The translations under genes were made by a program, and so were the position numbers. Below the pieces are notes generated by a model that was not told the DNA's origin, ran no database searches, and worked only from the letters and a program-made list of their open reading frames with translations. Shown piece after piece: positions 11,586-36,323 of a stretch of 57,891 bases of DNA. Every line of letters begins with the position of its first letter. Position 1 is the first letter of the stretch. This stretch comes from Muribaculaceae bacterium (lineage in GTDB: Bacteria; Bacteroidota; Bacteroidia; Bacteroidales; Muribaculaceae), in contig JAFYNZ010000063.1 in NCBI GenBank assembly GCA_017547845.1, positions 1-57,891 on the forward strand. Reading direction: 5' to 3'.

Positions 11586-13166
11586 TTAATCTTCGTTGTT
11601 TTCTTCTATCGGTTTGTTTTTGTTGTTCCAAGACTTGCGAGAGCGCATCAAAGCCTTGGTTATGACTGTAGTCGACTCGGCAGGGAGTTTTGGACCCTTA
11701 TTGGTGATTTCGATGTCTTTACGAGACTGATGCACCGAGCGAGAGTCCTTCTTCCATTCGCGTTTTTCTTCGCGGTCGTCGTTGCGACGGTCGCGGTCGA
11801 ATGGACGGCGGTCATCTTTGCGGAATGGCTTACGGTCGTCCTTACCGAAAGGTTTCTTGAAGTCACGACCACCTTTCTTGTCGTCGCGACGGCGGTCGGA
11901 CGGACGGCGATCGTTGCCAAACTTGCGAGTCTCTCTCTCCCACTCTTCGTCGGTCATGCGACGCACTTTAGGCTTGGCATCGCGATTGAAAGTCTTGTTT
12001 TGAACGCTACCGCCGGCAGTCTTAAACTCGTTGTATTTGCCGTCGAATAGCACATACTCACGCAATTCGCATTCCAAAGAGCCGTTGAGGATAGGGAACT
12101 TCACAGAAGCCTTCAGACCGATCTCTCTGAAGTGCTCATCTTTGTAGCCGAGAATCCATGCGTGGTAGCCCTTGAACTGCTGTTTGAGCGTGTCGCCGAT
12201 GGATTCGTACAATCCTCCGATGTCGGTCGGGTTGATGCGCACATCGTAAGGAGGATTGGTGATGAGGATACCATCAGCCGGAGGGTTTTGCCATGTGTCG
12301 AATGGTTTGCATTCGAGTTCCACCATGCTTTCCACGCCTGCAGCCTTGATGTTTTTGCGAGCAGCAGCGATGGCAGCCTGAGCGATGTCGCCACCATAGA
12401 TTTTGTGGGCAAATTCGCGTTCTTGAGAGTCGTCGTTGTAGAGCTCTTCAAACAACTCTTTGTTGAAGTCCGGCCATGTCTCGAACGCATAGTGCTGACG
12501 GAAGATACCGGGGTTGATATTAGCAGCGATGAGAGCGGCTTCGATGAGGAATGTGCCCGAGCCACACATCGGGTCGACAAAGTCAGACTCGCCTCTCCAT
12601 CCGGTCTTGAGGATGATGCCGGCAGCGAGCACCTCGTTGATAGGTGCTTCGGTCTGAGCGACGCGATAGCCACGCTTGTTGAGGCTTTCGCCGCTTGAGT
12701 CGAGTGAGATAGTGACACGGTCTTCAGCGATGTGGACGTTGAGGTTGATGTCGGCACCATTTAGACGAATCGATGGGCGACGACCATACTTGTCGTTGAA
12801 ATAGTCGGCGATACCATCTTTGACACGATAGGTGACAAAACGAGAGTGGGTAAATTCGCTACTGTTGACAGTAGAGTCGATGGCAAACGTCTTGTCGGGA
12901 GTGAGGAATTGGTCCCACTCGAAGTCGCGCACCATGTCGTAGAGTTCATCAGAATTTGATGCAGTGAATTTACTGATAGGCTTTAGGATTCTCAGAGCTG
13001 TGCGACAGCAAAGATTGGCCTTGTACATCATTTCAAGGTCGCCTTCGAAGGTGACCATTCTCAGACCTGCCTCGACGTTTTGAGCACCAAGCGCGATGAG
13101 TTCTTCGCTCAGCACATCTTCCAAGCCTTGGAAGGTCTTTGCCACCATTGGGTAAATCTGGTTCAT
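11586..13166 (-). CDS. THUMP-domain class I rRNA methyltransferase, RlmL-like, with basic tail
   Basis: A 526-aa protein. The N-terminal 160 residues or so form a ferredoxin-like plus THUMP RNA-binding region. A Rossmann methyltransferase domain follows, with DPMCGSGTFLIEAALIA (SAM motif I) and the NPPYDVR catalytic motif of N2-guanine methyltransferases. This matches the RlmL/YpsC group (m2G2445 of 23S rRNA) without the second, RlmK, domain. The last 140 residues or so are unusual: a low-complexity Arg/Lys/Asp-rich tail with repeated DDR, KPF and RPF motifs, probably disordered and RNA-binding. It lies 60 bp after the second ftsZ and before purD. Confidence 0.9.
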   Translation of the reverse strand: MNQIYPMVAKTFQGLEDVLSEELIALGAQNVEAGLRMVTFEGDLEMMYKANLCCRTALRILKPISKFTASNSDELYDMVRDFEWDQFLTPDKTFAIDSTVNSSEFTHSRFVTYRVKDGIADYFNDKYGRRPSIRLNGADINLNVHIAEDRVTISLDSSGESLNKRGYRVAQTEAPINEVLAAGIILKTGWRGESDFVDPMCGSGTFLIEAALIAANINPGIFRQHYAFETWPDFNKELFEELYNDDSQEREFAHKIYGGDIAQAAIAAARKNIKAAGVESMVELECKPFDTWQNPPADGILITNPPYDVRINPTDIGGLYESIGDTLKQQFKGYHAWILGYKDEHFREIGLKASVKFPILNGSLECELREYVLFDGKYNEFKTAGGSVQNKTFNRDAKPKVRRMTDEEWERETRKFGNDRRPSDRRRDDKKGGRDFKKPFGKDDRKPFRKDDRRPFDRDRRNDDREEKREWKKDSRSVHQSRKDIEITNKGPKLPAESTTVITKALMRSRKSWNNKNKPIEENNED

Positions 13167-13226: not shown

Positions 13227-14498
13227 TCAAAATATGATGGTCCGATTGCCGGTGCGACCGGTCGCTATCTTGTCATCGTCGGGGGTATTTACAGTCTCTG
13301 CAGTCGATTCTTCAGCAGTGTGACGCATGCAAGGTGGCTGCTCAAGTGAATTGATCACCTTGTCGTCATCCATTGTCTCGGGGGTGAGAATCATATACGA
13401 CGGCACTCTGCGAGGGTTGTCGACGATTTCGGTGTTTTGTGATGCCTCGTCTGTATTGCTTTGAGGGTTGTCGGAGGGTAGCGTCGAACGGAATCCCGTC
13501 AGCAGAATCGACACCTTGACTTTCTCGCCGAGAGTCGAGTCCTTGCCGTATCCCCATTTCACCCAGAGGTTGTCGGAAAGTCCTTGAGTGAATTTCGACA
13601 GTTGTTGAAGCTCTCCGATGCCCATTGATTTAGGATACCAGAAGAAGAGCACCAACTTCTTGGTCGAAGAGATGTCGCAGTCGCTAAGCATCGGAGAATT
13701 GATGGCATTCTCGATGGCTTTGGAGATGCGATTTTCGCCTTCGCCGTAGCCTGTCGAAATAATAGCTGTCTTACTATCTTCGAGGGCCGACTTGATGTCT
13801 TCGAAGTCGACGTTTATCACACCATCGGCATAGACGATTTCGGCGATGCTTTTGACGGCGTTGACCAGTGGTCGGTCGGGCTCGTCCATTCCGTCGTCGA
13901 ATTGGACGTTTTGGTAGTGTTCGATGAGGTTTTGATTATTGATGACGATGAGTGCGTCGACATTCTTGCGCATATCTTCGACGGCACTGAGGGCAATCTG
14001 TCGTTTCTGTTTGCCTTCAAATTCGAAGGGCAGTGTGACTACGCCGACAGTGAGTTTGCCTGCTTCTTTTGCCAAGCGAGCGACGACAGGTGCAGCGCCG
14101 GTGCCTGTACCACCACCCAGTCCTGATGTGACAAACACCATTTCAGAGCGGTCGTTGAGGTTGTCGATGATGACCTGTGCGGACTCTTCGGCTATCTCTC
14201 TACCCTTCTCTACCTTGTTGCCGGCTCCGCGACCTTTCTTGCCGATGTATAGTTTCTCGGGCACGCTGCAATTGCGTAGCACATCGTAGTCGGTGTTGCA
14301 GGCCACGAGTGAGAAATTATGGCTCGCGTTGTCGGCAGATTGCGTCTGACGAGAGGCGAGATTTTCTCTATGAAGACGTTCGACAGCATTACAGCCACCA
14401 CCGCCCACACCAATCACTTTGATGATGTAGGGGTTATTGCCGGCATCCTCGTCGATAAACTGCTTCGGATCGGTGATTTCTGCGTTGTCGATATTCAT
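13227..14498 (-). CDS. Second FtsZ paralogue (tandem to ftsZ)
   Basis: A 423-aa tubulin-like GTPase encoded 12 bp after ftsZ. The GTP-binding loops are intact: GVGGGGCNAVE (T1, about residues 30-40) and GGGTGTG (128-134). The catalytic T7 loop NVDFED (229-234) keeps both acidic residues. By eye about half of the core residues match the first FtsZ. Differences are an insertion of about ten residues after T1 (around 45-62) and a different linker. The tail keeps the Y-x-L-x-P...DDD-x-VI..LE pattern seen in the first FtsZ, and both proteins end in a short hydrophobic I-x-F. It therefore looks functional, not decayed. It could co-polymerise with or modulate FtsZ; this is inference. Confidence 0.93.
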   Translation of the reverse strand: MNIDNAEITDPKQFIDEDAGNNPYIIKVIGVGGGGCNAVERLHRENLASRQTQSADNASHNFSLVACNTDYDVLRNCSVPEKLYIGKKGRGAGNKVEKGREIAEESAQVIIDNLNDRSEMVFVTSGLGGGTGTGAAPVVARLAKEAGKLTVGVVTLPFEFEGKQKRQIALSAVEDMRKNVDALIVINNQNLIEHYQNVQFDDGMDEPDRPLVNAVKSIAEIVYADGVINVDFEDIKSALEDSKTAIISTGYGEGENRISKAIENAINSPMLSDCDISSTKKLVLFFWYPKSMGIGELQQLSKFTQGLSDNLWVKWGYGKDSTLGEKVKVSILLTGFRSTLPSDNPQSNTDEASQNTEIVDNPRRVPSYMILTPETMDDDKVINSLEQPPCMRHTAEESTAETVNTPDDDKIATGRTGNRTIIF

Positions 14499-14510
14499 TG
14501 GTCTTGAGGT

Positions 14511-15932
14511 TTAGAACATGATAGGAGCTACGCCTGAGTCGTTGGAAGGTGCAGCAGGTTTAGCGATTGTCGCAGCGGCAGGTGTCGCAGCAACGGTGGT
14601 GTCCTGCTGATCGTTGGCAACGACTTGTTCGGTCTTTTCTGAGACGATCAGTTCGCGGATGCGAGGGTCGCGATTGAACGCCGGAGTCTTCTCGAGCACA
14701 GAGATGACCTCGTCGTCGTCGTATTGCGACGGACGAAGCACAATGTATTTGGAGTTGGCAACGCTTTGAGTGTGGCTGACCACCTTCTCTGTGCCGTAGA
14801 CCTCCTTGAGCATTTGCTGACGCTCATCGTGGTTCTTCTTAGGGCGCACATCTTCAGCGACTACTTCGTCGTCGAAAGTCGCATGGCTTGGGAATGTGAT
14901 AGTCTCCTTGTTTTCGCTGATGGTCACATCGAAGCCTGAAGCAAGGATAGTCATCTTCACCTTTTCGCCGAGCGACTCGTCGAAAGTTGCACCCCACTTT
15001 ATCTTGATATTCTTGGAGAGATTGGCGGCAAACTGTGTGATTTCGTTCATTTCGCCCATCTTGAATGATTGTTGCGCCTTAGGGTTGAAGTGCAGATAGA
15101 AGAGGAGGCGTTTGCTTGAACGGATGTCGCTATTGCGGAGCAATGGAGAGTTGAGAGCGTCGTTGATGGACTTTGTGACGCGGCCTTCGCCCTCGCCGTA
15201 GCCGGTCGAGATGACAGCTGTGCCACTATCTTTGAGCGTCGTCTTCACATCTTGGAAGTCGACGTTGATATAGCCTTGAGTATTGATGATTTCGGCGATG
15301 CTTCGCGCTGCGTTGGAGAGTGTGTCGTCCGACTTAGCGAAAGCGTTGGTGAAGTCGAGGTCGGGATAGATGTCGGTGAGACGCTCGTTGTTGATGATGA
15401 GCAACGAGTCGACATATTTGCGCATCTCTTCCGCACCCTCGAGTGCCTTGATAATCTTAGGCTCGCCTTCGAAGAAGAATGGGATGGTGACGATACCGAT
15501 GGTGAGCATACCGGCTTCTTTAGCCACTTTAGCCACCACTGGGCCGGCACCTGTGCCTGTACCGCCACCCATACCGGCAGTGATGAAGACCATCTCGGTC
15601 TCATCTTGGAAAAGGTTGCGGATTTCTTCCTCGCTTGCCTCTGCGGCAGCCTTACCGAGTTCAGGTTTGTCACCGGCACCGAGACCTTTGGTTACGGTGT
15701 TGCCGATGAGAAGTTTGGTTTCTACCTTCGAGTTGCCGAGGGCTTGTTTATCGGTGTTGCAGACCACAAATGTCACGTTGTCGACATTCTGGTTGTGCAT
15801 ATGGTTGACAGCGTTACAACCACCACCACCCACTCCGACTACTTTGATAAGAGAAGGGAGGTTGAATTGATCGTCTGCAAATGCTGATGCGTCAGAGATA
15901 TTTCCCATATTATTCGTTTGGTTTTCTTCCAT
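14511..15932 (-). CDS. ftsZ: Cell division protein FtsZ
   Basis: FtsZ polymerises with GTP into the cytokinetic ring. The 473-aa product has GVGGGGCNAV (T1, about residues 33-42), GLGAGDKPELG (T3), GGGTGTG (122-128) and the T7 loop NVDFQD (223-228), so nucleotide binding and hydrolysis residues are complete. A long variable linker precedes a conserved segment (YIVLRP...DDDEVISVLEKTPAF) and an Ala/Pro-rich end. It follows ftsA by 25 bp, in the order typical of Bacteroidetes dcw clusters. The unusual feature is the second ftsZ right behind it. Confidence 0.98.
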   Translation of the reverse strand: MEENQTNNMGNISDASAFADDQFNLPSLIKVVGVGGGGCNAVNHMHNQNVDNVTFVVCNTDKQALGNSKVETKLLIGNTVTKGLGAGDKPELGKAAAEASEEEIRNLFQDETEMVFITAGMGGGTGTGAGPVVAKVAKEAGMLTIGIVTIPFFFEGEPKIIKALEGAEEMRKYVDSLLIINNERLTDIYPDLDFTNAFAKSDDTLSNAARSIAEIINTQGYINVDFQDVKTTLKDSGTAVISTGYGEGEGRVTKSINDALNSPLLRNSDIRSSKRLLFYLHFNPKAQQSFKMGEMNEITQFAANLSKNIKIKWGATFDESLGEKVKMTILASGFDVTISENKETITFPSHATFDDEVVAEDVRPKKNHDERQQMLKEVYGTEKVVSHTQSVANSKYIVLRPSQYDDDEVISVLEKTPAFNRDPRIRELIVSEKTEQVVANDQQDTTVAATPAAATIAKPAAPSNDSGVAPIMF

Positions 15933-15957: not shown

Positions 15958-17304
15958 CTAATTGTTGTTGTCTTTACTGATCAAATCGTCATCGGCATCG
16001 TCGCGTGTAATCAATTGGATAATTTTTGCACCTAAGTCCTTAAATCTGCTTGGTTTTTTAGGGACTACAGGCTTTTCCGGAGTCGCAGGTGTCGATGGAG
16101 GTAGCGGGTTGTTGCCGACATAGCCGGTTTCGGCAGGAAGCTCTTCTTGCACAGGGGTGATGAGACAGTTGTTGTCGTCGAGCTTGCTTGCGGCATGGAG
16201 AAGACTGATGACTTGAATGTACTCCATCTTAGAGGCGTTGGTGTCTTCAAGTCGGATGTATTCAGGCACTTTGCCGAGGCGCACTTTGAGCAGACTTTGC
16301 TGCTCGAGCAGTTGAGTCATGCCGTTGAGTTTGAAACCACCTCCGACAGCGATTACGCCACCCGGCAACTGCTTGCCATCAGGCTCAGCGTAGGTGAGTT
16401 GCTTGATGATGTTGGCCACAATCTCTTCGGAGCGAGCCGCCACAAGGTTTTGCACATCAGAGAGCTTGATGCCGCCGATATTCAGAGGCGATACGGTCTC
16501 TGCAGCGATGGCGTTGCCCGACGATGTCTTAATCTCTTCGGCGCGTTCTTCGAGCACGTTGAGAGTGGTGATGTCGCGAGTGATGTTGCGAGAACCCAGA
16601 GGCAGAGTAGCGAGATAGTTGAGGTTGCCGTTTCGATAGATAGAGACGGTGGTGACTTCAGCACCCATATCGACGAGCATACATCCCAGACGCTTCTCTT
16701 CGTTGCTAAGCACGAGGTCGGCGACAGCCAACGGAGTCACGATATAGTCCTTGATTTCGATTTTGGTCTTCTCGTGAAACATTTTTGCCAAGTTGCGGCG
16801 GATCTGTTGGCGACAAGCGATGATGTCAAACGATCCTCTGATATTGTTGCCCATCGAGCCGATAGGCGACTTTGTCTCGCTCTTGTCGATGAAATATGAG
16901 CGAGGGACGGCTTGAATGACCTCAAGCGAGCTGTCGATATTGGCTCTCAGCACTTCCTCCTTGATTTGCGACACGATTTGCTCGTTAATTTCGGTGTCTT
17001 CAGGGAGGTTGCGGTTGACTTCATAAGGTATATTGCGAAGCGAACGACCTGAGATGCCTACATAGACGGCTTTGATGAGGCGTTTGTTGAGGCAGGTCTT
17101 CTGGTTGAGACGGTTGATGATGCGACTGAGGGCAGTGTTGACCTCTTCGACATTCTGAATGATGCCGTAGCGCACATATTCGACGATTTTGTCTTTCTCG
17201 AGGGCGATGACATTGAGCTCGCCTGTGGCCGATAGTTTACCGATAGCTCCGACAATCTTGGAGCTACTGATTTCGATGGCTGCAATATATCTGTCTGTTG
17301 TCAT
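15958..17304 (-). CDS. ftsA: Cell division protein FtsA
   Basis: FtsA is an actin-like ATPase that tethers FtsZ filaments to the membrane and recruits late divisome proteins. The 448-aa protein starts with the phosphate-1 region (AAIEISSSKIVGAIG). It has VDMGAEVTTVSIY (phosphate 2) and VGGGFKLNGM near residue 320. Close to the C-terminus, after a Pro-rich linker, is an amphipathic stretch (FKDLGAKIIQLIT) that fits the membrane-targeting helix. It lies between ftsQ (45 bp) and ftsZ (25 bp). Confidence 0.97.
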   Translation of the reverse strand: MTTDRYIAAIEISSSKIVGAIGKLSATGELNVIALEKDKIVEYVRYGIIQNVEEVNTALSRIINRLNQKTCLNKRLIKAVYVGISGRSLRNIPYEVNRNLPEDTEINEQIVSQIKEEVLRANIDSSLEVIQAVPRSYFIDKSETKSPIGSMGNNIRGSFDIIACRQQIRRNLAKMFHEKTKIEIKDYIVTPLAVADLVLSNEEKRLGCMLVDMGAEVTTVSIYRNGNLNYLATLPLGSRNITRDITTLNVLEERAEEIKTSSGNAIAAETVSPLNIGGIKLSDVQNLVAARSEEIVANIIKQLTYAEPDGKQLPGGVIAVGGGFKLNGMTQLLEQQSLLKVRLGKVPEYIRLEDTNASKMEYIQVISLLHAASKLDDNNCLITPVQEELPAETGYVGNNPLPPSTPATPEKPVVPKKPSRFKDLGAKIIQLITRDDADDDLISKDNNN

Positions 17305-17349: not shown

Positions 17350-18222
17350 TTAGTGGGTTGGTTGTTGTTGAGGTTGAGAGGAGTTGGTTGTGGTGGTTTC
17401 CACCGTCAAGTCTTCGATGCCTTGGAGACTCATTTCTTCGCGGTCGGTGCTATCTTCTACGACTGTGGAGTGCACTTTGAGGGCCTTATTGCGACGACTT
17501 GCGACGACTTGGTCCTTAAATTTGACGGAGATGGTGTCATACATTTCCCAGCCTTTGTATTTGAGCACATTGTGGTAGAAGAGCATGAGATTGTCAAACT
17601 TGGTCGCGAGGTCGGTCGTGTCGCCGATATTGATGATCTGTCCCTTGACGCGTGGGTAGAGGAGTATATCGGTCGCTGACTTGGCTTCGACCATGGTGAT
17701 GAGTCGCGACATGGTCTCGTCGGCAGAGATGTGGCGAGTGACAGGGAGCAATGACTTGGCGTTGAAATTTTCGTCAAATTGTCCGCATATCACAGGCACA
17801 TCGACAAAGAAACCGTTGCCGGCGTCGATGCGTTTGCCGTCTTTGTTGATGTAGTAGCTGTTTCCGTCGTTGGTGATGACTCTGACTTCGGGTATCATCG
17901 GAACGATATCGATGTGGAGACGGTCGTCAGATGAGATATAGCATTCGACCTTTTCGTAGCTGTTGTCAATGGATAGGGCGTTCTCGATGTTGTCGAGATC
18001 GAGGTCGGCTACCGGAGTTGAAAGTATCTGAGCATCAATGCGTTGGAGTTTTTCTTTGACGCCGTCTACGGTGACGAAGTTGTATTCGGAATTGTTCTCG
18101 ATGGCGATAGCGATGTCGGCGATAGTGCGTTGCGAGGCCTTGTCGATAGCCCATATGGAGGCGATTGCTATGTAGGATAGCAATATCAAGAGTATCAGCC
18201 ATTTACAGATAATCTTTACCAT
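17350..18222 (-). CDS. ftsQ: Cell division protein FtsQ
   Basis: FtsQ is a bitopic inner-membrane scaffold of the divisome. This 290-aa protein has one membrane helix near residues 7-27, followed by a periplasmic region. That region has a POTRA-like start (FVTVDGVKEKL) and a conserved YYINKDGKRI segment, as in Bacteroidetes FtsQ. The tail after about residue 250 is Thr/Gln-rich. Sequence identity in this family is low, so position between murC and ftsA carries much of the call. Confidence 0.88.
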   Translation of the reverse strand: MVKIICKWLILLILLSYIAIASIWAIDKASQRTIADIAIAIENNSEYNFVTVDGVKEKLQRIDAQILSTPVADLDLDNIENALSIDNSYEKVECYISSDDRLHIDIVPMIPEVRVITNDGNSYYINKDGKRIDAGNGFFVDVPVICGQFDENFNAKSLLPVTRHISADETMSRLITMVEAKSATDILLYPRVKGQIINIGDTTDLATKFDNLMLFYHNVLKYKGWEMYDTISVKFKDQVVASRRNKALKVHSTVVEDSTDREEMSLQGIEDLTVETTTTNSSQPQQQPTH

Positions 18223-18232
18223 TTCCGACAGT

Positions 18233-19609
18233 TTATAGTTGTTGCAAAATCGCTTTTATATCCGGAAGCAAAACGTTAATGTCCGCAGCCCCAAGGGTCA
18301 TTAGGATGTCAAAGTTACGAACTTTTATCAAATCAAGCAAATCTTTTCGCATGCAAAGTGTCTTTGATGCGTTTTTGATGTCGTTGAGTATGATTTCGGA
18401 GGTGACACCTTCGATGGGTAATTCGCGGGCAGGATAGATTTCACAGAGGATGACATCGTCGGCTGTCGACAGTGCTTCGGCAAATCCCGGCGCGAAGTCG
18501 CGAGTGCGTGTGTAGAGGTGTGGTTGAAACACGACGCAGAGTCGGCGGTCGGGATAGAGCGCCTTGACCGATGCGATAGATGCCTTGACTTCATTGGGGC
18601 TATGTGCGTAGTCGTCGATGAGCACTTTGCCGTCAGGACCTTCCTCTCTGAGCCATATCTCGAAGCGGCGTTTTGCGCCGAGGAATGACTGCATGGCATT
18701 GCGGATAGTCCGGTCGTCGACGCCCAAGCGATGAGCAATGGCGATAGCTGCCACGGCGTTGTCGATGTTGATGTCGATAGGCACGCCGAGCTCAATGTCG
18801 CAGATGCGACAGTCGGGAGCTACGAAGTCGAAGTATAGGTGTCCGTCGATGTGACGAATGTTGGAGGCGTGGTAGTCCCCTACCCCTTCGCTGCTGTAGG
18901 TCGCAATCTCTACCCCCTCTGCCACTCTGGGACGGAGTTTGAGGCCTGTGTGCATCAGCAGAAATCCGCCCGGCTTGATGAGCGAGGTGAAGTGAGCGAA
19001 GCTTTCGAGGTAGTTCTCCTCGTTGCCGTAGATGTCGAGGTGGTCGGGGTCGGTCGATGTGACCACAGCGATGTGAGGGCTGAGGTGATGGAATGAGCGG
19101 TCGTACTCATCAGCTTCGATCACCGAGTAAGGCGATGTCTCGCTGAGGAGCAGATTGCTGTCGTAGTTGCGAAGAATGCCACCGAGAAAAGCGTTACAAC
19201 CGATTGGCGACGAGTGTAGCAAGTGGGCCACCATCGACGATGTGGTGGTCTTGCCGTGAGAGCCTGCGATGCAGATGCCCTCGCTTTGGAGCGTGATTTT
19301 GCCCAACAAGGCTGCACGCTTTATGATTTCGAAACTGTTTTGACGGAAGTAGGTCAGAATACGATTGTCGTCGGGAATGGCAGGGGTGTAGACCACCAGT
19401 GTCTTCGACGGATCGCGAAACGCCTCGGGAATGAGTGCTTCGTCGTCATCATAGACGATGCTTGCCCCCTCATCGATAAGAGCGCGAGTGAGGTCGGTCG
19501 CAGTGCGGTCGTAGCCTGCTACGCTATAGTCGTTGGCAAGGAAGTATCTGACCAGATTGGCCATTCCTATGCCGCCGGCTCCGACGAAATATATGTGTCG
19601 ATATTGCAT
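18233..19609 (-). CDS. murC: UDP-N-acetylmuramate-L-alanine ligase MurC
   Basis: MurC adds the first amino acid, L-alanine, to UDP-MurNAc using ATP. The 458-aa protein has an N-terminal UDP-binding fold (FVGAGGIGMANL), where MurC has its GIGG-type motif. It also has the Mur-ligase P-loop GSHGKTTTSSM, the DEYDRSF segment typical of MurC, and a C-terminal domain with DDYAHSPNEVKAS. It lies 8 bp behind murG and 10 bp ahead of ftsQ. No murB or ddl is present in this cluster. Confidence 0.97.
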   Translation of the reverse strand: MQYRHIYFVGAGGIGMANLVRYFLANDYSVAGYDRTATDLTRALIDEGASIVYDDDEALIPEAFRDPSKTLVVYTPAIPDDNRILTYFRQNSFEIIKRAALLGKITLQSEGICIAGSHGKTTTSSMVAHLLHSSPIGCNAFLGGILRNYDSNLLLSETSPYSVIEADEYDRSFHHLSPHIAVVTSTDPDHLDIYGNEENYLESFAHFTSLIKPGGFLLMHTGLKLRPRVAEGVEIATYSSEGVGDYHASNIRHIDGHLYFDFVAPDCRICDIELGVPIDINIDNAVAAIAIAHRLGVDDRTIRNAMQSFLGAKRRFEIWLREEGPDGKVLIDDYAHSPNEVKASIASVKALYPDRRLCVVFQPHLYTRTRDFAPGFAEALSTADDVILCEIYPARELPIEGVTSEIILNDIKNASKTLCMRKDLLDLIKVRNFDILMTLGAADINVLLPDIKAILQQL

Positions 19610-19617
19610 AGTCTTAA

Positions 19618-20724
19618 TTAGTGTTTTGAGTGAATGATTTCAAGCACATGGTCGACAATCTTCTCGTCGCTGTTTTCGAGAGCCAATTGTCTGACATTTT
19701 GAGCCATCTGATTGAGTCTGTCGGCATCTTTGACCGTAGAGAGCACTGTGCCGACAAGTTTCTCACGGGCCTCGTTGTCGGCTATCATGATAGCGGCATT
19801 CTTGTTGGCCAAGGCGAGAGCATTTTTGGTCTGGTGGTCTTCAGCCACATTGGGCGAAGGCACGAGGATACAAGGCTTGCCGAGCAATTCGAGTTCGCTG
19901 ATAGAACCTGCACCGGCGCGAGAGACCACGAGCGAGGCTGCTGCGTATGCCACCGACATGTCGGTGATGAACTGTGTCACGATGATACCTTTCTTGCCTT
20001 TGGCAGCGACCACTCCCCTATCTCCGAAGTTTTTGCCTGTCTGCCAGATGAGTTGCACGCCGTTGTCGACAAATTTCTGTAGTTGGTCGCACAAGGACTC
20101 GTTGAGTGTGCGAGCACCCAGACTGCCGCCTACGACGAGCACCGTAGGAAGGTCGGGTTGCAAGCCAAACGAGCGGCGCGCCTCTTCGGCCGTCTTAGTG
20201 TCGATGAGTATCTCTTTTCTGACCGGGTTGCCTGTCATCACAATCTTGTCGGCAGGGAAGAAACGTTCCATGTCGGGATATGCGACACATATCTTGCGGG
20301 CCTTTTGTGCCAAAAGTTTGTTGGTCACTCCGGCGTAGGAGTTCTGCTCTTGAAGCAAAGTCGGAACGCCCATCTTCTGTGCTGCTTTGAGTGTCGGACC
20401 ACTCGCATAACCTCCGACGCCGATGGCGATGTCGGGCTTGAAATTGCGAATGATAGATCGTGCCTTGTGAATACTCTTCATGAGCTTTATGATGACAGCG
20501 AAGTTCTTGAAGAGGTTTTTGCGGTTGAAACCGGCGACCGGCAAGCCCTCAATAGGATAGCCGGCAGCAGGCACTTTCTCCATCTCCATACGATTTTCCG
20601 CACCGACAAAGAGTATGTCGGCGTCTACTCTGCGCTTGATGGCGTTGGCAATGGAGAGAGCAGGGAAGATATGTCCTCCTGTACCACCTCCGCTAATCAA
20701 TATTTTATATCGTCTCTGGGTCAT
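19618..20724 (-). CDS. murG: Lipid II synthase MurG
   Basis: MurG transfers GlcNAc from UDP-GlcNAc to lipid I on the cytoplasmic face of the membrane, giving lipid II. The 368-aa GT28 enzyme has the N-terminal Gly-rich loop SGGGTGGHIFPA. It also has GVGGYASGP, the GGSLGART loop, and the C-terminal donor-binding RAGAGSISELELLGKP. Its ATG overlaps the ftsW TGA by 4 bp (ATGA), so the flippase-neighbour polymerase and lipid II synthase are translationally coupled. Confidence 0.98.
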   Translation of the reverse strand: MTQRRYKILISGGGTGGHIFPALSIANAIKRRVDADILFVGAENRMEMEKVPAAGYPIEGLPVAGFNRKNLFKNFAVIIKLMKSIHKARSIIRNFKPDIAIGVGGYASGPTLKAAQKMGVPTLLQEQNSYAGVTNKLLAQKARKICVAYPDMERFFPADKIVMTGNPVRKEILIDTKTAEEARRSFGLQPDLPTVLVVGGSLGARTLNESLCDQLQKFVDNGVQLIWQTGKNFGDRGVVAAKGKKGIIVTQFITDMSVAYAAASLVVSRAGAGSISELELLGKPCILVPSPNVAEDHQTKNALALANKNAAIMIADNEAREKLVGTVLSTVKDADRLNQMAQNVRQLALENSDEKIVDHVLEIIHSKH

Positions 20725-22103
20725 TTCTTTATATCGTTATAAGTGAATTGAGTCGGGTTGATAGCCTGCATATCTTTAGGCAATTCTTTGGATTCGATCT
20801 TGATATCCTCTTTGTTTTTGTTGGTAGCGGCGTATTTGCTGACACTGAGCATGATGCCGATGGCGGCACTCATCACCAGCACCGACGTACCCCCCTTGGA
20901 GATAAACGGCAACGGCTGTCCCGAGACAGGGAACACGCCTGTGGTGATGGCCATATGTACCAATGCCTGGAACACTATCAGCATGCCACACCCCAGAATC
21001 AATATCGCCGGGAATGCACGCGTACATTTGCCTGCCAGGTACATGGCTCGACCTATCAGCACCAGATATAGCGACAACAATATGATGCTGCCGACAATGC
21101 CGATATCTTCGACCACAATCGAGAATATATAGTCGGAGAATGCCAGTGGTAGGCGAGAGCGTTCTTTGGAGTTGCCCGGTCCGTGGCCGAATAAGCCTCC
21201 ACGAGCTTGAGCAAAACAGGAGTACATCGCTTGACGATTGTAGTCATTGATAGTGTCTCCGGGATTCACCCCTTCTATGTAGCGCTTGATACGATTGCTC
21301 CATGTCGCTTCACGATTGACTTCACCTCCGACCGTCATTGTCTCGTTGTTGTGAGCAAGCTCGGTTTCTTCCGGGCCGTTAAGTTCTTCGATTTTATCGC
21401 GAACCCACAAGAATCCGCCGCCGGCAATGCCATATATGACCAGGATAAACAACACTTTGCGTAGCTCCATACCTCCGATAATAAACATTGCCAGCGATAT
21501 GCAGAATATCAAGAGCGTGTTGGTCATACCATTCCTGACGAGCAATCCGCAGAAGACAAGCACCACGATGGCACATTGCCACACCCCTCGTGTGGTCACT
21601 CCTCCCACCTTTTGATTCTTGGCAAGGATGGCTGAGAGTATCACCACGATGCTCAACTTGGCAATTTCGGGTGGCTGAATGGTGATGCCTGCTATCTTGA
21701 TGGCTCGTTGAGCGCCATTGATAGTGGCACCTCCGAATAGTGTAAACAAGAGCAATATGACTGTCACAATGGCGACAATCCATGCCAAATTCTTAAAGTA
21801 CTTGTAGTGAATGTTTTGGAACATAATCACTATGACAAATCCGACGGCAAGAAACATGCCGTGACGGATCAGCGGACCATAGACATTGTTGCCATCGACC
21901 TCAGTGGCCGATGCGCTGAAAATCTCTACGATTGCTATAAGCAGCAGTCCGATGTATGTACCCCAAATGAAGCGGTCAGCTTTCGGCTTAGTGGGGGCGT
22001 CAGCTTTTTCCGACTTCTTGTCACGCACAGAGTCACCGACAGGCTTTCCGTCGATGGTCTCGTTGATGACAATCTTGTCGTTTTCAGTAGGTAGTTTAGT
22101 CAT
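20721..22103 (-). CDS. ftsW: Septal peptidoglycan polymerase FtsW
   Basis: FtsW is a SEDS-family glycosyltransferase that polymerises lipid II at the septum with FtsI. I chose the ATG at 22103 because the longer reading frame upstream runs into murD, while this start leaves a 34-bp gap and gives 460 aa. The first 65 residues or so are hydrophilic and cytoplasmic (MTKLPTENDK). About ten membrane helices follow, with the family motif PFISKGGTSVL near residue 405. A long periplasmic loop lies around residues 230-310. It overlaps murG by 4 bp. Confidence 0.96.
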   Translation of the reverse strand: MTKLPTENDKIVINETIDGKPVGDSVRDKKSEKADAPTKPKADRFIWGTYIGLLLIAIVEIFSASATEVDGNNVYGPLIRHGMFLAVGFVIVIMFQNIHYKYFKNLAWIVAIVTVILLLFTLFGGATINGAQRAIKIAGITIQPPEIAKLSIVVILSAILAKNQKVGGVTTRGVWQCAIVVLVFCGLLVRNGMTNTLLIFCISLAMFIIGGMELRKVLFILVIYGIAGGGFLWVRDKIEELNGPEETELAHNNETMTVGGEVNREATWSNRIKRYIEGVNPGDTINDYNRQAMYSCFAQARGGLFGHGPGNSKERSRLPLAFSDYIFSIVVEDIGIVGSIILLSLYLVLIGRAMYLAGKCTRAFPAILILGCGMLIVFQALVHMAITTGVFPVSGQPLPFISKGGTSVLVMSAAIGIMLSVSKYAATNKNKEDIKIESKELPKDMQAINPTQFTYNDIKK

Positions 22104-22137
22104 GTCAATTAATAGTGGATAAAAGAGTTGTTGTTTA

Positions 22138-23484
22138 TTATTTAAGTTTGAGTACTTGTTGCTTGAATTGGCGACCGCGGTCTTCGTAGCTCTTGAAGAG
22201 GTCGAAGCTTGCGCAGCATGGCGAAAGCAACACGGTGTCGCCTTTTGTCGCGATGTCGTGACATGCCTTGACTGCATCTTCGACTGAGTGAGTGTCGACG
22301 ATTTGTGCCACCTTGCCACCAAAGAACTCAAGCAACTTGCTATTGTCCTTACCCATGCAGACGATAGCCTTGACGCGAGACTTCACGAGTTCTTCGATTT
22401 CGCTGTAGTCGTTGCCCTTGTCCTTGCCGCCGAGAATGAGCACGGTAGGGGAGGTCATGCTTTCCAAAGCATACCATGTGGAGTTGACATTGGTAGCCTT
22501 TGAGTCGTTGATGTATCTGACGCCTTCGATTTCTGCCACAAATTCCAATCGGTGTTCGACAGCCTCAAAGTCTTGCAACGCTTCGCGAATCTTTTCGTTC
22601 TTGATGTCCAAAAGCGATGCCGACAGACCTGCTGCCATAGAGTTGTAGAGATTGTGAAGGCCTTGGATTGCAAGTTGGTCGCGTGGTATTTCCCACACAT
22701 CTTGCGGAGTGGAGTAGTGCACCATCTTGCCATCGACCCACGCTGCCGAGTCAAATAGTTTATCCTCATTGAAAGGCATCATCTGTGCTTCGATATGAAG
22801 TTGTGCTATCTGTGCTGCGATTACAGGGTCGCCCTGCCAATAGATGAAGTAGTCCTCCTTGGTTTGGTTTTGAAGGATACGGAATTTGGCAGAGACATAG
22901 TTCTCCATCTTGTAGTCGTAGCGGTCCATATGGTCGGGAGTGATGTTCATAATCACAGCGACATTGGCCTTGAAGTCGTACATGTTTTCGAGCTGGAAGC
23001 TTGATAATTCGATGACATAAACATCGTGGTGGGTAGTTGCCACCTGGAGCGCAAGACTCTGTCCGACATTGCCTGCCAAGCCGACATTCAAGCCCGCTTT
23101 CTTGAGAATATGATAGATCAGAAGGGTAGTGGTGGTCTTGCCATTTGAGCCTGTGATGCAGACCATTTTTGCATCTGTGTAGCGACCGCCAAACTCAATC
23201 TCTGAGATTACAGGGATGCCACGCTCGGCGATTTTGAGCATCAGTGGGGTAGTGGGCGGTATGCCCGGACTTTTGACCACCTCATCGGCATTAAGTATCA
23301 GTTCTTCGGTGTGTTGCCCTTCTTCCCAAGCGATGTGATGCTCGTCGAGCATCTCCTTGTATTTAGGGGCAATCATGCTCATATCTGATAGGAACACGTC
23401 CATGCCTTTGACTTTGCCCAATACGGCAGCACCGACACCTGACTCGCCGCCACCTAATACTACCAATCTTTTAGTTGCCTCCAT
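22138..23484 (-). CDS. murD: UDP-N-acetylmuramoylalanine-D-glutamate ligase MurD
   Basis: MurD adds D-glutamate to UDP-MurNAc-L-Ala. The 448-aa protein has an N-terminal Rossmann-like domain (LGGGESGVGAAVLG), the P-loop GSNGKTTTTLL, and ELSSFQLE and NITPDHMDRY in the central domain. A C-terminal domain follows with YINDSKATN, the MurD version of the substrate-binding motif, and GGKDKGNDY. It sits between mraY (23 bp) and ftsW (34 bp). Confidence 0.97.
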   Translation of the reverse strand: MEATKRLVVLGGGESGVGAAVLGKVKGMDVFLSDMSMIAPKYKEMLDEHHIAWEEGQHTEELILNADEVVKSPGIPPTTPLMLKIAERGIPVISEIEFGGRYTDAKMVCITGSNGKTTTTLLIYHILKKAGLNVGLAGNVGQSLALQVATTHHDVYVIELSSFQLENMYDFKANVAVIMNITPDHMDRYDYKMENYVSAKFRILQNQTKEDYFIYWQGDPVIAAQIAQLHIEAQMMPFNEDKLFDSAAWVDGKMVHYSTPQDVWEIPRDQLAIQGLHNLYNSMAAGLSASLLDIKNEKIREALQDFEAVEHRLEFVAEIEGVRYINDSKATNVNSTWYALESMTSPTVLILGGKDKGNDYSEIEELVKSRVKAIVCMGKDNSKLLEFFGGKVAQIVDTHSVEDAVKACHDIATKGDTVLLSPCCASFDLFKSYEDRGRQFKQQVLKLK

Positions 23485-33152: not shown

Positions 33153-34706
33153 TTATTCTTCTATCGCCCAGCGGTCGATAGACTTTGTTTCGGCAGAGAA
33201 ATTCACGCCGATTTTGTACACTTTTTTGTCACTGCTGAGGAATGGCAAGGCATATCCTTTGTCGTTGATTTGTTGTAATGCATCTTCGGCAGTGCCATCG
33301 AGTTTGAACTCCATAACATAGACATAGTCATAGGTCTCGAGCACCATATCGATGCGACCTGCTGCAGTCTGATATTCTGCCTTGACATAGAAGCCCATAA
33401 GTCGGGTGAGTAGGTATATCACGTTATGGTAGTGACGCTCGCGATCGCCACCATGCACCAAGAGGTAAGGAGTGTCGGCAAAAAGCGACTGCAAGCGTGT
33501 CATGAACTCCTCTACTCGACCACCTCGCAAGTCTTGCACAAATCTGCGCAAGTCGAATGTGTTGTGGCGTTTGTTTTGCGTGTAATATGGCAATAAGAAT
33601 CGTATAAAACCCTCCTTCACTTCTCGATTTGGGTAACAAAGAGTGAAGGTGTTAAATTCTTTGTCGTAGCTCTTAATCGTGAGGTATCCACTTTGGAAAA
33701 TCACCGGCAGAGGATTGTCGTTGTCGAATATGCAATCGAGTACATCTGTAGTCACCTCTTCGCTTGTCAAAGCAGCAAGATCGTAGTCACAGTTACGAAG
33801 CATGTCGACCAATAGGGTAGGTGTTCCGGTTTCAAACCAATAGTCGCGGAATTGCCTGTTTTTAAGAGTATTAAGGACGCTGAACGGATTGTAGATCCCT
33901 TCCGAATTCTGACAGAAATGATAGCCGTCATAGTCTTCTCGGAGTTTATCGTAGGCTTCCTCTTTAGTCATTCCGTTATCTTGTGCGAGCTCCTCAATTT
34001 GCAGGTCAAAATACTGATGCAACTCGTCGTTTGTAATGCCACAAATACCGGTGTAGTTTTTTAGCATCGAGATGTCTTCCAGATTGTTGAGGTCAGAGAA
34101 GACGCTGACTTTGCCGAATTTGGTGACGCCTGTAAGGAGAGCAAATTTAATGTACTTATCGCAGCTCTTGAGGTTGCCATAAAATGCCTTCAGAGTGCCT
34201 CTATAGTCGTCGAGAAGGTCATCGTTGCCATATGCCTGAAGCAATGGTTTGTCATACTCGTCAATGAGCACAACCACTTGTCGACCAGTCTTTTCGTAAG
34301 CGCGTTGCATCACCCCGCCGAAACGCATACCAAGAGACTTTTCGGTCTCTACGATGCCATAAGTTTGTTCCCATTGAGACACGGCATTATTCAGAATGTC
34401 GGTCAAGGCTTCCGGAGTGTCATATTTTTGTGAATTGAGGTCGAGATGAAGAATAGGGTACTGAGTCCACTCCGTTTCCAATTTCTCAAGAGCAAGACCT
34501 TCAAATAGGTCCTTACGGCCACTGAGGTAAGCCTCGATGGTCGACATGAGCAAAGACTTTCCGAATCGTCTCGGACGACTCAAGAAATAGTAGCAACCAC
34601 GGTCGACAAGGTCATAAATATATTTGGTCTTGTCGATATAGACATACCCTCCTTGTCGAAGTTTTTCGAATTGTTGTATTCCTACAGGAAATTTCATCTC
34701 GCTCAT
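33153..34706 (-). CDS. AAA-ATPase / PD-(D/E)XK nuclease-like protein, copy 1
   Basis: A 517-aa protein of the AAA-ATPase-like plus PDDEXK-9 (DUF1703) group, abundant in Bacteroidetes gut bacteria and of unknown function. The N-terminal ATPase domain has a P-loop variant SRPRRFGKSL (43-52) and Walker B VVLIDEYDKPL (144-154). The C-terminal domain has D453 in GRIDMVLE and E466-x-K468 in MEFK, the nuclease-fold core. It is a tandem near-duplicate of the next gene (32-bp gap). No mobile-element ends were seen. Confidence 0.88.
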   Translation of the reverse strand: MSEMKFPVGIQQFEKLRQGGYVYIDKTKYIYDLVDRGCYYFLSRPRRFGKSLLMSTIEAYLSGRKDLFEGLALEKLETEWTQYPILHLDLNSQKYDTPEALTDILNNAVSQWEQTYGIVETEKSLGMRFGGVMQRAYEKTGRQVVVLIDEYDKPLLQAYGNDDLLDDYRGTLKAFYGNLKSCDKYIKFALLTGVTKFGKVSVFSDLNNLEDISMLKNYTGICGITNDELHQYFDLQIEELAQDNGMTKEEAYDKLREDYDGYHFCQNSEGIYNPFSVLNTLKNRQFRDYWFETGTPTLLVDMLRNCDYDLAALTSEEVTTDVLDCIFDNDNPLPVIFQSGYLTIKSYDKEFNTFTLCYPNREVKEGFIRFLLPYYTQNKRHNTFDLRRFVQDLRGGRVEEFMTRLQSLFADTPYLLVHGGDRERHYHNVIYLLTRLMGFYVKAEYQTAAGRIDMVLETYDYVYVMEFKLDGTAEDALQQINDKGYALPFLSSDKKVYKIGVNFSAETKSIDRWAIEE

Positions 34707-34738: not shown

Positions 34739-36292
34739 TTATTCTTCTATCGCCCAACGGTCGATAGACTTTGTTTCGGCAGAGAAATTTATGCCGATTT
34801 TGAACACTTTTTTACCACTGCTAAGGAATGGCAGGGCATATCCTTTGTCGTTGATCTGTTGCAGTGCTTCTTCGGCAGAGCCATTGAGTTTGAACTCCAT
34901 GACATAGATATAGTCAGAGGTCTCGAGCACCATATCGATGCGACCTGCTGCAGTCTGATATTCTGCCTTGACATAGAAGCCCATAAGTCGGGTGAGTAGG
35001 TATATCACGTTATGGTAGTGACGCTCGCGATCACCGCCATGCACCAAGAGGTATGGTGTGTCTGCAAAAAGCGACTGCAGTCGTGTCATGAACTCCTCTA
35101 CTCGACCACCTCGCAAGTCTTGCACAAATCTTCGCAAGTCGAATGTGTTGTGGCGTTTGTTTTGCGTGTAATAAGGTAATAAGAAGCGTATAAAACCCTC
35201 CTTCACTTCTCGATTTGGGTAACAAAGAGTGAAGGTGTTAAATTCTTTGTCGTAGCTCTTAATCGTGAGGTATCCACTTTGGAAAATGACCGGCAGAGGA
35301 TTGTCGTTGTCGAAGATGCAATCAAGTACATCTGTAGTGACCTCTTCGCTTGTCAAAGCAGCAAGATCGTAATCACAGTTACGAAGCATGTCGACCAATA
35401 GGGTAGGTGTTCCGGTTTCAAACCAATAGTCGCGGAATTGCCTCTTTGCCAGCGTATTGAGAATGCTGAAAGGATTGTACATACCTTCGGCATCTTCATG
35501 GAAGTGATAGCCGTCGAAATCTTCTTTCAGCTTGGCATAAGTTTCCTCGACAGTCATTTTTTGAGCCTCGGCAAGTAGCTGAATTTCGTTGTCGAAATAG
35601 TCATGCAACTCGCCTTCGGTGATACCGCAGATTGGGGCATAGCGAAGGTCCATGGAAATATCCATTAGATTGTTGAGGTCGGAGAAGACGCTGACTTTGC
35701 CGAATTTTGTGACGCCTGTAAGGAGAGCAAATTTGATGTACTTATCGCAGCTCTTGAGGTTGCCGTAAAAGGCTTTCAATGTGCCTCTATAATCGTTGAG
35801 AAGGTCATCGTTACCATATGCCTGAAGCAATGGTTTGTCATACTCGTCAATGAGCACAACCACTTGTCGACCTGTCTTTTCGTATGCGCGTTGCATCACC
35901 CCGCCGAAACGTCTGCCAAGACCAATCTCTGCATCATTACTGCCATAGACAGTCTCCCACTTCGTAAGTGTTTCGTCAAGTACTTCGGTCAAGGCTTCCG
36001 GAGTGTCATATTTTTGTGAATTGAGGTCAAGATGAAGGATAGGGTATTGTGTCCACTCCGTCTCCAATTTCTCAAGAGCAAGACCCTCAAACAAGTCCTT
36101 GCGACCACTGAGGTAAGCCTCGATGGTCGACATGAGCAAAGACTTTCCGAATCGTCTCGGACGACTCAAGAAATAGTAGCAACCACGGTCGACAAGGTCA
36201 TAAATATATTTGGTCTTGTCGATATAGACATACCCTCCTTGTCTAATCTTTTCAAACTGTTGTATTCCTACAGGAAATTTCATCTCACTCAT
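34739..36292 (-). CDS. AAA-ATPase / PD-(D/E)XK nuclease-like protein, copy 2
   Basis: A second copy, 517 aa from the ATG at 36292. That start matches copy 1 exactly (MSEMKFP); an in-frame ATG four codons upstream at 36304 is the alternative. The P-loop SRPRRFGKSL, Walker B LIDEYDKPL and the C-terminal GRIDMVLE/MEFK nuclease motifs are all retained, so both copies look active. The N-terminal 100 residues and the C-terminal half are almost identical to copy 1. Two internal segments (about 102-128 and 216-280) differ strongly. A -7 element TATATTTG lies at 36324-36331. Confidence 0.88.
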   Translation of the reverse strand: MSEMKFPVGIQQFEKIRQGGYVYIDKTKYIYDLVDRGCYYFLSRPRRFGKSLLMSTIEAYLSGRKDLFEGLALEKLETEWTQYPILHLDLNSQKYDTPEALTEVLDETLTKWETVYGSNDAEIGLGRRFGGVMQRAYEKTGRQVVVLIDEYDKPLLQAYGNDDLLNDYRGTLKAFYGNLKSCDKYIKFALLTGVTKFGKVSVFSDLNNLMDISMDLRYAPICGITEGELHDYFDNEIQLLAEAQKMTVEETYAKLKEDFDGYHFHEDAEGMYNPFSILNTLAKRQFRDYWFETGTPTLLVDMLRNCDYDLAALTSEEVTTDVLDCIFDNDNPLPVIFQSGYLTIKSYDKEFNTFTLCYPNREVKEGFIRFLLPYYTQNKRHNTFDLRRFVQDLRGGRVEEFMTRLQSLFADTPYLLVHGGDRERHYHNVIYLLTRLMGFYVKAEYQTAAGRIDMVLETSDYIYVMEFKLNGSAEEALQQINDKGYALPFLSSGKKVFKIGINFSAETKSIDRWAIEE

Positions 36293-36323
36293 TCGGTCAG
36301 GCATTTACGATTAATATGAACTG

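Follow-up and report, generated by a model that had tools for sequence, protein, structure and literature searches.

We analysed a 57,891-nucleotide stretch of DNA from a member of the Muribaculaceae (the window, at its full length), whose minus strand carries a division and cell wall (dcw) gene cluster that closes with ftsA and two ftsZ genes, which we call ftsZ1 and ftsZ2. FtsZ is usually single-copy and essential. An earlier note on this DNA had described a tandem pair of ftsZ paralogues at the end of the dcw cluster, 12 bp apart, and both open reading frames (ORFs) do lie there with that gap between them (Table 1). The gene order is murE-mraY-murD-ftsW-murG-murC-ftsQ-ftsA-ftsZ1-ftsZ2; a gene for a penicillin-binding protein precedes it at the place of ftsI, and genes of the rlmL type and purD follow ftsZ2. 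The two ftsZ genes are presumably co-transcribed. FtsZ1 and FtsZ2 have the same residue in 186 of 421 aligned columns (44% identity, E = 2e-94) which, together with the Pfam matches of FtsZ2, rules out a chance ORF as the origin of ftsZ2.

FtsZ2 exceeds the cut-offs of two Pfam domains, with 141.8 bits for PF00091 (cut-off 33; FtsZ1 has 155.4 bits) and 38.5 bits for PF12327 (cut-off 27; FtsZ1 has 48.4 bits). Among 77 near-invariant FtsZ positions, FtsZ1 keeps 75 and FtsZ2 keeps 65. The T4 and T7 loops, which the earlier note had read as intact in FtsZ2, are confirmed by their coordinates, and in our alignment A1 the residues G128-G130, T131, G132, G134, N229, V230, D231, F232, and D234 of FtsZ2 are invariant, with E233 nearly so. 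Judging by these two loops, FtsZ2 looks like a functional GTPase, as had been proposed. Both proteins also carry the tail segment P-x3-DDD-x-VI-x2-LE (PSQYDDDEVISVLE in FtsZ1 and PETMDDDKVINSLE in FtsZ2) and an I-x-F end (IMF and IIF, respectively), again in agreement with the first reading. An [IVL]-x-F motif lies within the last 7 residues of 70 of the 80 other FtsZ rows from the family, versus 116 of 7485 7-mers from linkers. The linker itself has diverged between FtsZ1 and FtsZ2, as the note had said, yet the I-x-F tail was retained.

The core of FtsZ2 is altered in two places. An insertion had been reported after the T1 loop; it is present, with 12 residues, but its place is farther along than T1, in the stretch from helix H1 to strand S2. 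This H1-S2 segment has 26 residues in FtsZ2 versus 14 in FtsZ1, a length equalled in the alignment only by an FtsZ from another genus (L062, from genome G041). Also, three residues of the T3 loop are missing in FtsZ2, and they are likewise missing in an FtsZ from another family (L137). So neither change need be damaging. In the predicted structure of FtsZ2 (mean predicted local distance difference test score, or pLDDT, of 75.8; predicted template modelling score, or pTM, of 0.73), the strands and helices follow the order expected for FtsZ, and the blocks of the core mostly have a pLDDT above 80. The model places a helix at residues 32-52 and a short helix at 378-385, inside the low-confidence tail; confidence is also low in the middle of the insertion (residues 56-58) and in the linker.

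Table 1. The ftsZ pair, the features of FtsZ2, and neighbouring genes, with positions in the window.
Feature	Position	Strand	Details
ftsZ1	14511..15932	-	473 aa, canonical copy; TIGR00065 334.3 bits, cut-off 295.2
gap between ftsZ1 and ftsZ2	14499..14510	-	12 bp
ftsZ2	13227..14498	-	423 aa, divergent tandem copy; PF00091 and PF12327 over cut-off
FtsZ2 insertion of 12 residues, H1 to S2	14322..14357	-	residues 48-59
FtsZ2 T4 loop GGGTGTG, GTP binding	14097..14117	-	residues 128-134
FtsZ2 T7 loop NVDFED	13797..13814	-	residues 229-234; completes GTPase site of neighbouring subunit
FtsZ2 tail segment P-x3-DDD-x-VI-x2-LE	13341..13382	-	residues 373-386
FtsZ2 C-terminal I-I-F	13230..13238	-	I-x-F end
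ftsA	15958..17304	-	TIGR01174 183.5 bits, cut-off 175.85
ftsQ	17350..18222	-	assigned by position and by syntenic matches in the same slot of relatives
murC	18233..19609	-	TIGR01082 over cut-off
murG	19618..20724	-	TIGR01133 over cut-off
ftsW	20721..22331	-	PF01098 over cut-off; TIGR02614 224.9 bits, below cut-off 337.5
rlmL-type rRNA methyltransferase	11586..13166	-	PF01170 and THUMP; synteny

The protein in the ftsQ slot had no match in NCBIfam at 1e-20. The ftsW ORF as listed overlaps murD, so its start is probably placed too early. The rlmL-type gene comes next after ftsZ2 in the window and next after the single ftsZ in three relatives (G198, G184, and G086).

The second full-length copy is rare. 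We used FtsZ2 to search 111 genomes of the genus (including the window's own, G000). Matches were present in 104 of them, but two full-length FtsZs in G000 only; at least 23 of these genomes are less than 80% complete, and 7 had no match at all. Across the family, 147 of 149 genomes matched PF00091 and 1 of the 149 had a full tandem pair. The three relatives just mentioned, which belong to the same subclade, have the order ftsA-ftsZ-rlmL with one ftsZ. From this distribution we reject an old duplication across the genus or the family as the source of the pair. The two-FtsZ system that the earlier note had thought possible in this lineage therefore fails, as an old and lineage-wide one, for this genus: two full-length copies occur in one genome, the copy in the nearest relative is degenerate, and the other members of the subclade that we named have one.

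That nearest relative, G181, has an FtsZ1 that is 72.7% identical to the window's. Directly 3' of its ftsZ is an open gene of 247 aa whose match to FtsZ is confined to the N-terminal half. In its product the T4 loop is damaged (GGETGTD), and there is no T7 loop, C-terminal domain, or tail. It keeps 26 of the 77 near-invariant positions (19 of the remaining 51 are deleted), and the gene is AT-rich, with a GC content of 0.386 versus 0.471 for the FtsZ1 gene of G181. At each of three thresholds for residues that are rare in the family, the fragment shares the most with FtsZ2, as compared to the best of 81 other rows (5 versus 3, 8 versus 7, and 12 versus 10). It is probably an orthologue of FtsZ2, judging by these residues and by its position. 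We did not count an apparent tandem partial copy in another congener (G244). Most of this extra piece is an exact repeat of the start of that genome's ftsZ, so it probably reflects either an assembly error or a partial duplication of very recent date.

The family also contains other FtsZ-like proteins. In 26 other genomes of the family that have at least two hits to PF00091, a search with FtsZ2 found a second full-length FtsZ only in G095 and G017, on other contigs. These genes (L158, 8206-9504, and L159, 7944-9215) lie outside the dcw cluster, and their products end in ITF and ITFD; the genomes are from two species of another genus and are 2 of its 9 genomes in the family search. The gene before the second FtsZ of G095 is presumably glnS. 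Within the window's genus, three genomes (G160, G174, and G206) encode divergent FtsZ-like proteins in frames of 281-293 aa (L210, L211, and L212), whose similarity to FtsZ2 starts only at about residue 85-118 and which are on contigs other than that of ftsZ. At three more loci (L270, 4125-5899; L271, 4045-5849; and L215, 4603-5945), FtsZ-like genes are split, with an N-terminal-half protein and a separate C-terminal-half protein encoded close together, and all three N-terminal-half proteins score over the cut-off of PF00091. L215 and L270 lie near a WYL regulator and a protein that matches DUF6557 (over the cut-off in L215 only). A PADLOC scan of eight proteins from the split loci gave matches for the two regulators only. 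As for the window's own genome, we rejected a third FtsZ-like candidate (G000:C24:13527): it scores 17.0 bits with PF00091, which is below the cut-off, its gene has a P-loop, and we take it to be a uridine kinase.

The strongest matches to FtsZ2 are the FtsZs of its own genus, with 46-53% identity to the main FtsZ of the congeners listed and a best E value of about 1e-97. For the 26 genomes from elsewhere in the family, identity to the main FtsZ was 42-48%, and among the matches listed elsewhere in a search of the order it was at most 49% (the best was in G013, at 2e-88). We built a careful tree of 38 rows and a quick tree of 154 rows; the latter were drawn from 188 rows, already free of duplicates, by leaving out, by hand, nine rows that were partial or duplicate and 25 loci whose rows were near-identical, distant, or congeneric. 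FtsZ2 falls inside the genus clade of the careful tree (30 rows, support 100/98), and in both trees it groups with its own genus and not with the tandem sets of other families that we describe below. The earlier note had proposed a phylogeny to learn whether the duplication is old and widespread: FtsZ2 falls within the genus in our trees, and the duplication is not lineage-wide; the approximately unbiased (AU) test is compatible with several placements, which we list below.

The end branch of FtsZ2 is 10-13 times as long as that of FtsZ1 (4.12 versus 0.32 in the careful tree and 2.64 versus 0.26 in the quick tree). Because the two end branches may cover different lengths of time, the difference in rate would be below these ratios, but it is still several-fold on both trees. 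Pairwise estimates by the method of Nei and Gojobori (NG86) give a nonsynonymous divergence (dN) of 0.483 and a synonymous divergence (dS) of 1.827 between FtsZ1 and FtsZ2. For FtsZ1 and its counterpart in G181, dN is 0.175 and dS is 1.549, while for FtsZ1 and G198 dS is 3.374. The value for FtsZ1 and FtsZ2 lies between the other two, as would be expected if the gene was duplicated between those two splits, so far as saturation allows such a reading.

The changes in FtsZ2 are not spread evenly: it is identical to FtsZ1 at 64 of the 77 near-invariant positions but, among the 255 other positions of the core, at only 100 (Fisher p = 7e-12). We also wrote a branch codon model for this analysis and applied it to nine genes (316 columns) on two tree shapes. 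A ratio of nonsynonymous to synonymous rates (omega) of 1 for FtsZ2 is rejected on both (2dlnL of 39.0 and 33.8), so we reject neutral drift, with a caveat about saturation to which we return, and the omega of FtsZ2 is above that of the other branches (2dlnL of 18.5 and 13.7). The gene looks native, as its GC content (0.515), its GC content at third codon positions (GC3, 0.608), and its codon adaptation (0.680) are all within the range of its neighbours. As far as can be judged from sequences, FtsZ2 is constrained but under relaxed purifying selection. Among the signs that the earlier note had listed as speaking against its reading, we do see, in part, confinement to one genome and a disrupted copy in a relative, but we do not see a dN/dS near 1.

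We lean towards the view that FtsZ2 is a young, local tandem duplicate under relaxed purifying selection and a dispensable modulator of the Z-ring, with FtsZ1 as the essential scaffold. The duplication at the end of the dcw cluster would most likely date to the ancestor that this species shares with G181. ftsZ2 would then have evolved faster than ftsZ1, with purifying selection kept on GTP binding, on the T7 loop, and on the C-terminal docking tail. Both proteins would be made from a single transcript. Because the nucleotide face, the T7 face, and the tail are kept, FtsZ2 could enter the protofilaments of FtsZ1 and be bound through its tail by the partner that also binds FtsZ1, probably FtsA, which would bring it to the membrane. 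The altered T3 loop, the H1-S2 insertion, and the different linker would change its dynamics, perhaps in the turnover or the bundling of the polymer. The half copy in G181 indicates that the second gene is easily reduced.

Several observations weigh against this view. FtsZ2 misses the NCBIfam equivalog for FtsZ, TIGR00065 (273.1 bits, cut-off 295.2), so we call it an FtsZ paralogue and not an FtsZ equivalog. The free tree puts FtsZ2 beside the other 24 congeners and not with FtsZ1 and G181, and the AU test rejects none of four placements at 0.05: with FtsZ1 and G181 (p = 0.141), with the five-row subclade (p = 0.127), with FtsZ1 alone (p = 0.071), or outside the genus (p = 0.075). Synonymous sites are saturated and the branch length of FtsZ2 is at its bound (12.18), so absolute values of omega are unusable, and this is the caveat to the rejection of omega = 1. 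Given the incomplete genomes and the 7 without any match, a second copy could have been missed in some members of the genus. Finally, by plain identity the G181 fragment is closer to FtsZ1-type proteins (73 and 72 matching core positions) than to FtsZ2 (61). The case for its orthology to FtsZ2 consists of a few shared rare residues and its position, so the fragment might have arisen by an independent duplication.

Alternatively, FtsZ2 might be a redundant duplicate that is heading for loss, its constraint being a remnant and its product having no selected role now. It is true that the gene is whole in only 1 of the 111 genomes of the genus, that its branch is long and its omega raised, and that the copy at the same place in G181 is AT-rich, has a damaged T4 loop, and has lost everything from the T7 loop to the tail. 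Nevertheless, the frame of FtsZ2 is intact over 423 codons, 65 of the 77 near-invariant sites are kept, omega = 1 is rejected, codon usage is native, and the I-x-F tail has outlasted the divergence of the linker. We consider ongoing loss to be unlikely, although it is the alternative that we take most seriously.

It seems improbable to us that FtsZ2 has left cell division for some other role, for example in a special cell form or as a decoy that draws off attackers of FtsZ. The varied FtsZ-like proteins of the family, which include separate N- and C-terminal halves with two of the three loci near WYL regulators, would be in keeping with such a role. But ftsZ2 is still in the dcw cluster beside ftsZ1 and ftsA, and it keeps features for polymerisation and docking that a mere decoy would not need in full. 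We give slightly less credence still to a gain of FtsZ2 from outside the genus, that is, from another genus or family of Bacteroidales, with insertion next to ftsZ. The branch is very long, and a placement outside the genus has p = 0.075 in the AU test; on the other hand, the best matches are from the genus, the careful tree places FtsZ2 there, its tail and codon usage are native, and the gene directly adjoins its paralogue.

Tandem ftsZ genes also occur elsewhere in the Bacteroidales. In a search of the order with FtsZ2 at 1e-20, 288 of 294 genomes matched and 24 had at least two matches (the window's own is included in each count). We followed up the other 23 with a search using FtsZ1 and by reading the loci. 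Tandem pairs or triplets of ftsZ after ftsA were found in 17 genomes from eight families besides the window's: pairs in f14 (1 genome), f20 (4), f68 (3), f99 (3), f80 (1), and f86 (1), and triplets in f28 (3) and f65 (1). We did not count G304 and G496, whose two FtsZ pieces are at the ends of different contigs, or genomes from f77 (G326, G418, and G493) and f38 (G389), whose short second FtsZ is elsewhere and does not adjoin the first. Separately, a one-contig genome from family f56 (G690) has a second FtsZ far from the first (G690:C1:2293293-2294246), which is 52% identical to the window's FtsZ1 over the match. In 283 genomes from other orders of the class, with at most five candidates per genome scored at 1e-35, none had more than one match and 280 had one; the three without a match are all from family f161.

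We also searched entire families, using genomes that are at least 90% complete and reading adjacency by eye from the listed coordinates. Two adjacent FtsZ matches were present in 39 of 39 genomes of f99 (15 genera), in 41 of 41 genomes of f68 (22 genera; G878 has a third, distant match), and in 8 of 8 genomes of f20 (2 genera), and all 3 genomes of f28 had three. In a few genomes the second match was shortened; in G826, G867, and G864, for instance, it runs into the end of a contig, and in G876 into Ns. So, of the earlier idea of a two-FtsZ system in this lineage, what stands is that other families of the order have two- and three-FtsZ systems; it does not apply to the window's genus.

The upstream copies in these families have distinctive tails. 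We examined tandem loci L192-L207 and L272-L311, from families f20, f28, f65, f68, f80, and f99. In a further quick tree, the 15 last copies lie among the single-copy FtsZs of other families, within a group of 48 rows that has a modest support of 80. The 19 upstream copies group apart from these in that tree, with a support of 82 by the Shimodaira-Hasegawa-like approximate likelihood ratio test (SH-aLRT); this is weak support, so the upstream type may have one origin or several. An end of the LHDNVD type is found in 10 of 15 last copies and 29 of 59 single copies but in 0 of 19 upstream copies. Even among single copies it is therefore not general, and the last copies of f99 have an end unlike it. 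Examples of amphipathic upstream ends are WFKRKLGNMFNED and WFVRQFNSFFEED. In a larger set, 51 of 59 upstream copies had a W-[FLIV] amphipathic pattern in their last 26 residues, whereas all 55 last copies and all 41 single copies lacked it. We drew up the pattern after we had seen the tails, so these counts describe and do not test. The upstream rows include L303, which is cut by Ns and was scored as lacking the pattern, and the last rows include L294, which is cut at a contig end and could not show it. The upstream copy of L207 (G329, f80) lacks the pattern. With a variant that does not require tryptophan, the counts were 48 of 59, 0 of 55, and 0 of 41. In the window's family, none of 82 rows, FtsZ1 and FtsZ2 included, has the W-[FLIV] pattern.

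A narrower pattern for an acidic end gave a weaker contrast. It was present in 15 of 19 upstream copies, 0 of 15 last copies, and 1 of 59 single copies of the first set, in 11 of 20 upstream and 1 of 20 last copies of f99, and in 18 of 20 upstream and 2 of 19 last copies of f68. The hydrophobic moment of the last 24 residues was higher in upstream copies. In the first set their mean was 0.49; last copies had a mean of 0.32 (p = 9e-5) and single copies one of 0.31 (p = 3e-8), although the ranges overlap (0.19-0.65, 0.18-0.53, and 0.16-0.54, respectively). It was higher for upstream copies in the second set as well (p = 5e-6 for f99 and p = 9e-7 for f68). All of these p values treat related rows as independent. 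At the same tandem loci, the tails of FtsA are amphipathic too, and ftsA adjoins the ftsZ genes. The upstream tails suggest an FtsA-type membrane helix on FtsZ, which would make these copies self-anchoring. Artificial FtsZ-mts constructs (mts, membrane-targeting sequence) are the counterpart of such a natural self-tethering Z-ring. We would not be surprised either way, but the window's pair could be a young case of a recurrent Z-ring of the Bacteroidales, encoded in tandem within the dcw cluster and mature elsewhere, in which a canonical FtsZ and one or two upstream paralogues with a helix instead of the usual tail would form a mixed ring that tethers itself.

The rest of the window holds another tandem pair. 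The proteins of two adjacent genes on the minus strand (33153-34706 and 34739-36304) are 89% identical, which indicates a recent tandem duplication; we take them to be AAA-ATPase-type proteins. On the plus strand are genes for three large proteins of 1208, 1569, and 1928 aa with signal-like starts (43018-46644, 46953-51662, and 51934-57720). The 1208-aa and 1928-aa proteins have similar ends, PGIYVVNG[KQ]KV[LM]VK, which are reminiscent of the sorting domains of secreted proteins of Bacteroidota.

How does the pair compare to known systems? The chloroplast pair of FtsZ1 and FtsZ2 is old. In chloroplasts, FtsZ2 stabilises the ring and FtsZ1 speeds it (PMC12343686), and the FtsZ1/FtsZ2 pairs of archaea are described as old (PMC9871819). 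These resemble the window's pair in that two FtsZs belong to one system, and there the labour is divided. They differ from it in age: the window's pair is young and has almost no parallel among its congeners. OdinFtsZ1 binds the membrane by its own N-terminal amphipathic helix and OdinFtsZ2 does so via SepF (PMC12583498). The same paper cites FtsZs of Mycoplasma that bind the membrane by their N- or C-terminal ends. Whereas the Odin helix is N-terminal, the putative helix of the upstream copies in Bacteroidales is C-terminal.

As for bacteria, a few have two ftsZ genes, with the extra copy outside the dcw cluster (PMC9871819). The likeness is that one bacterium has two ftsZ genes, but in the window and in eight other families of Bacteroidales the extra copy is inside the cluster and in tandem. 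Agrobacterium tumefaciens has three FtsZ homologues, of which one is essential and only one is full length with a linker and C-terminal peptide (CTP) (PMC13170164). It too has more than one FtsZ, and the fragment in G181 resembles a partial copy of this kind; unlike the extra FtsZs of A. tumefaciens, the window's FtsZ2 is full length with a tail and is in tandem within the dcw cluster. The closest comparison is to the tandem sets of f14, f20, f28, f65, f68, f80, f86, and f99, which are from the same order, occupy the same dcw slot after ftsA, and are full length or nearly so. However, the tandem copies of f20, f28, f68, and f99 are in every genome sampled, whereas the window's pair is in one genome of its genus. 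Also, the extra copies in f20, f28, f65, f68, f80, and f99 are upstream and most have an amphipathic helix where the usual tail would be, while the window's FtsZ2 is downstream and has kept the tail of its family. In our searches of the open-licence PMC literature, we found no report of tandem ftsZ genes in the dcw cluster, of FtsZ pairs in Bacteroidales, or of the helix-tailed upstream FtsZs of Bacteroidales.

The tandem copies within the dcw clusters of Bacteroidales qualify the published statement that extra bacterial ftsZ genes lie outside the cluster (PMC9871819). In the window's pair, we seem to have a lineage soon after a tandem duplication, with a relative that carries a broken half, and this would let one observe directly how a second FtsZ comes to be retained or lost. 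In f99 and f68, tandem FtsZs are present in all of the genomes sampled, with a putative self-anchoring partner, which would make it possible to test in natural bacteria why Z-rings need a separate anchor.

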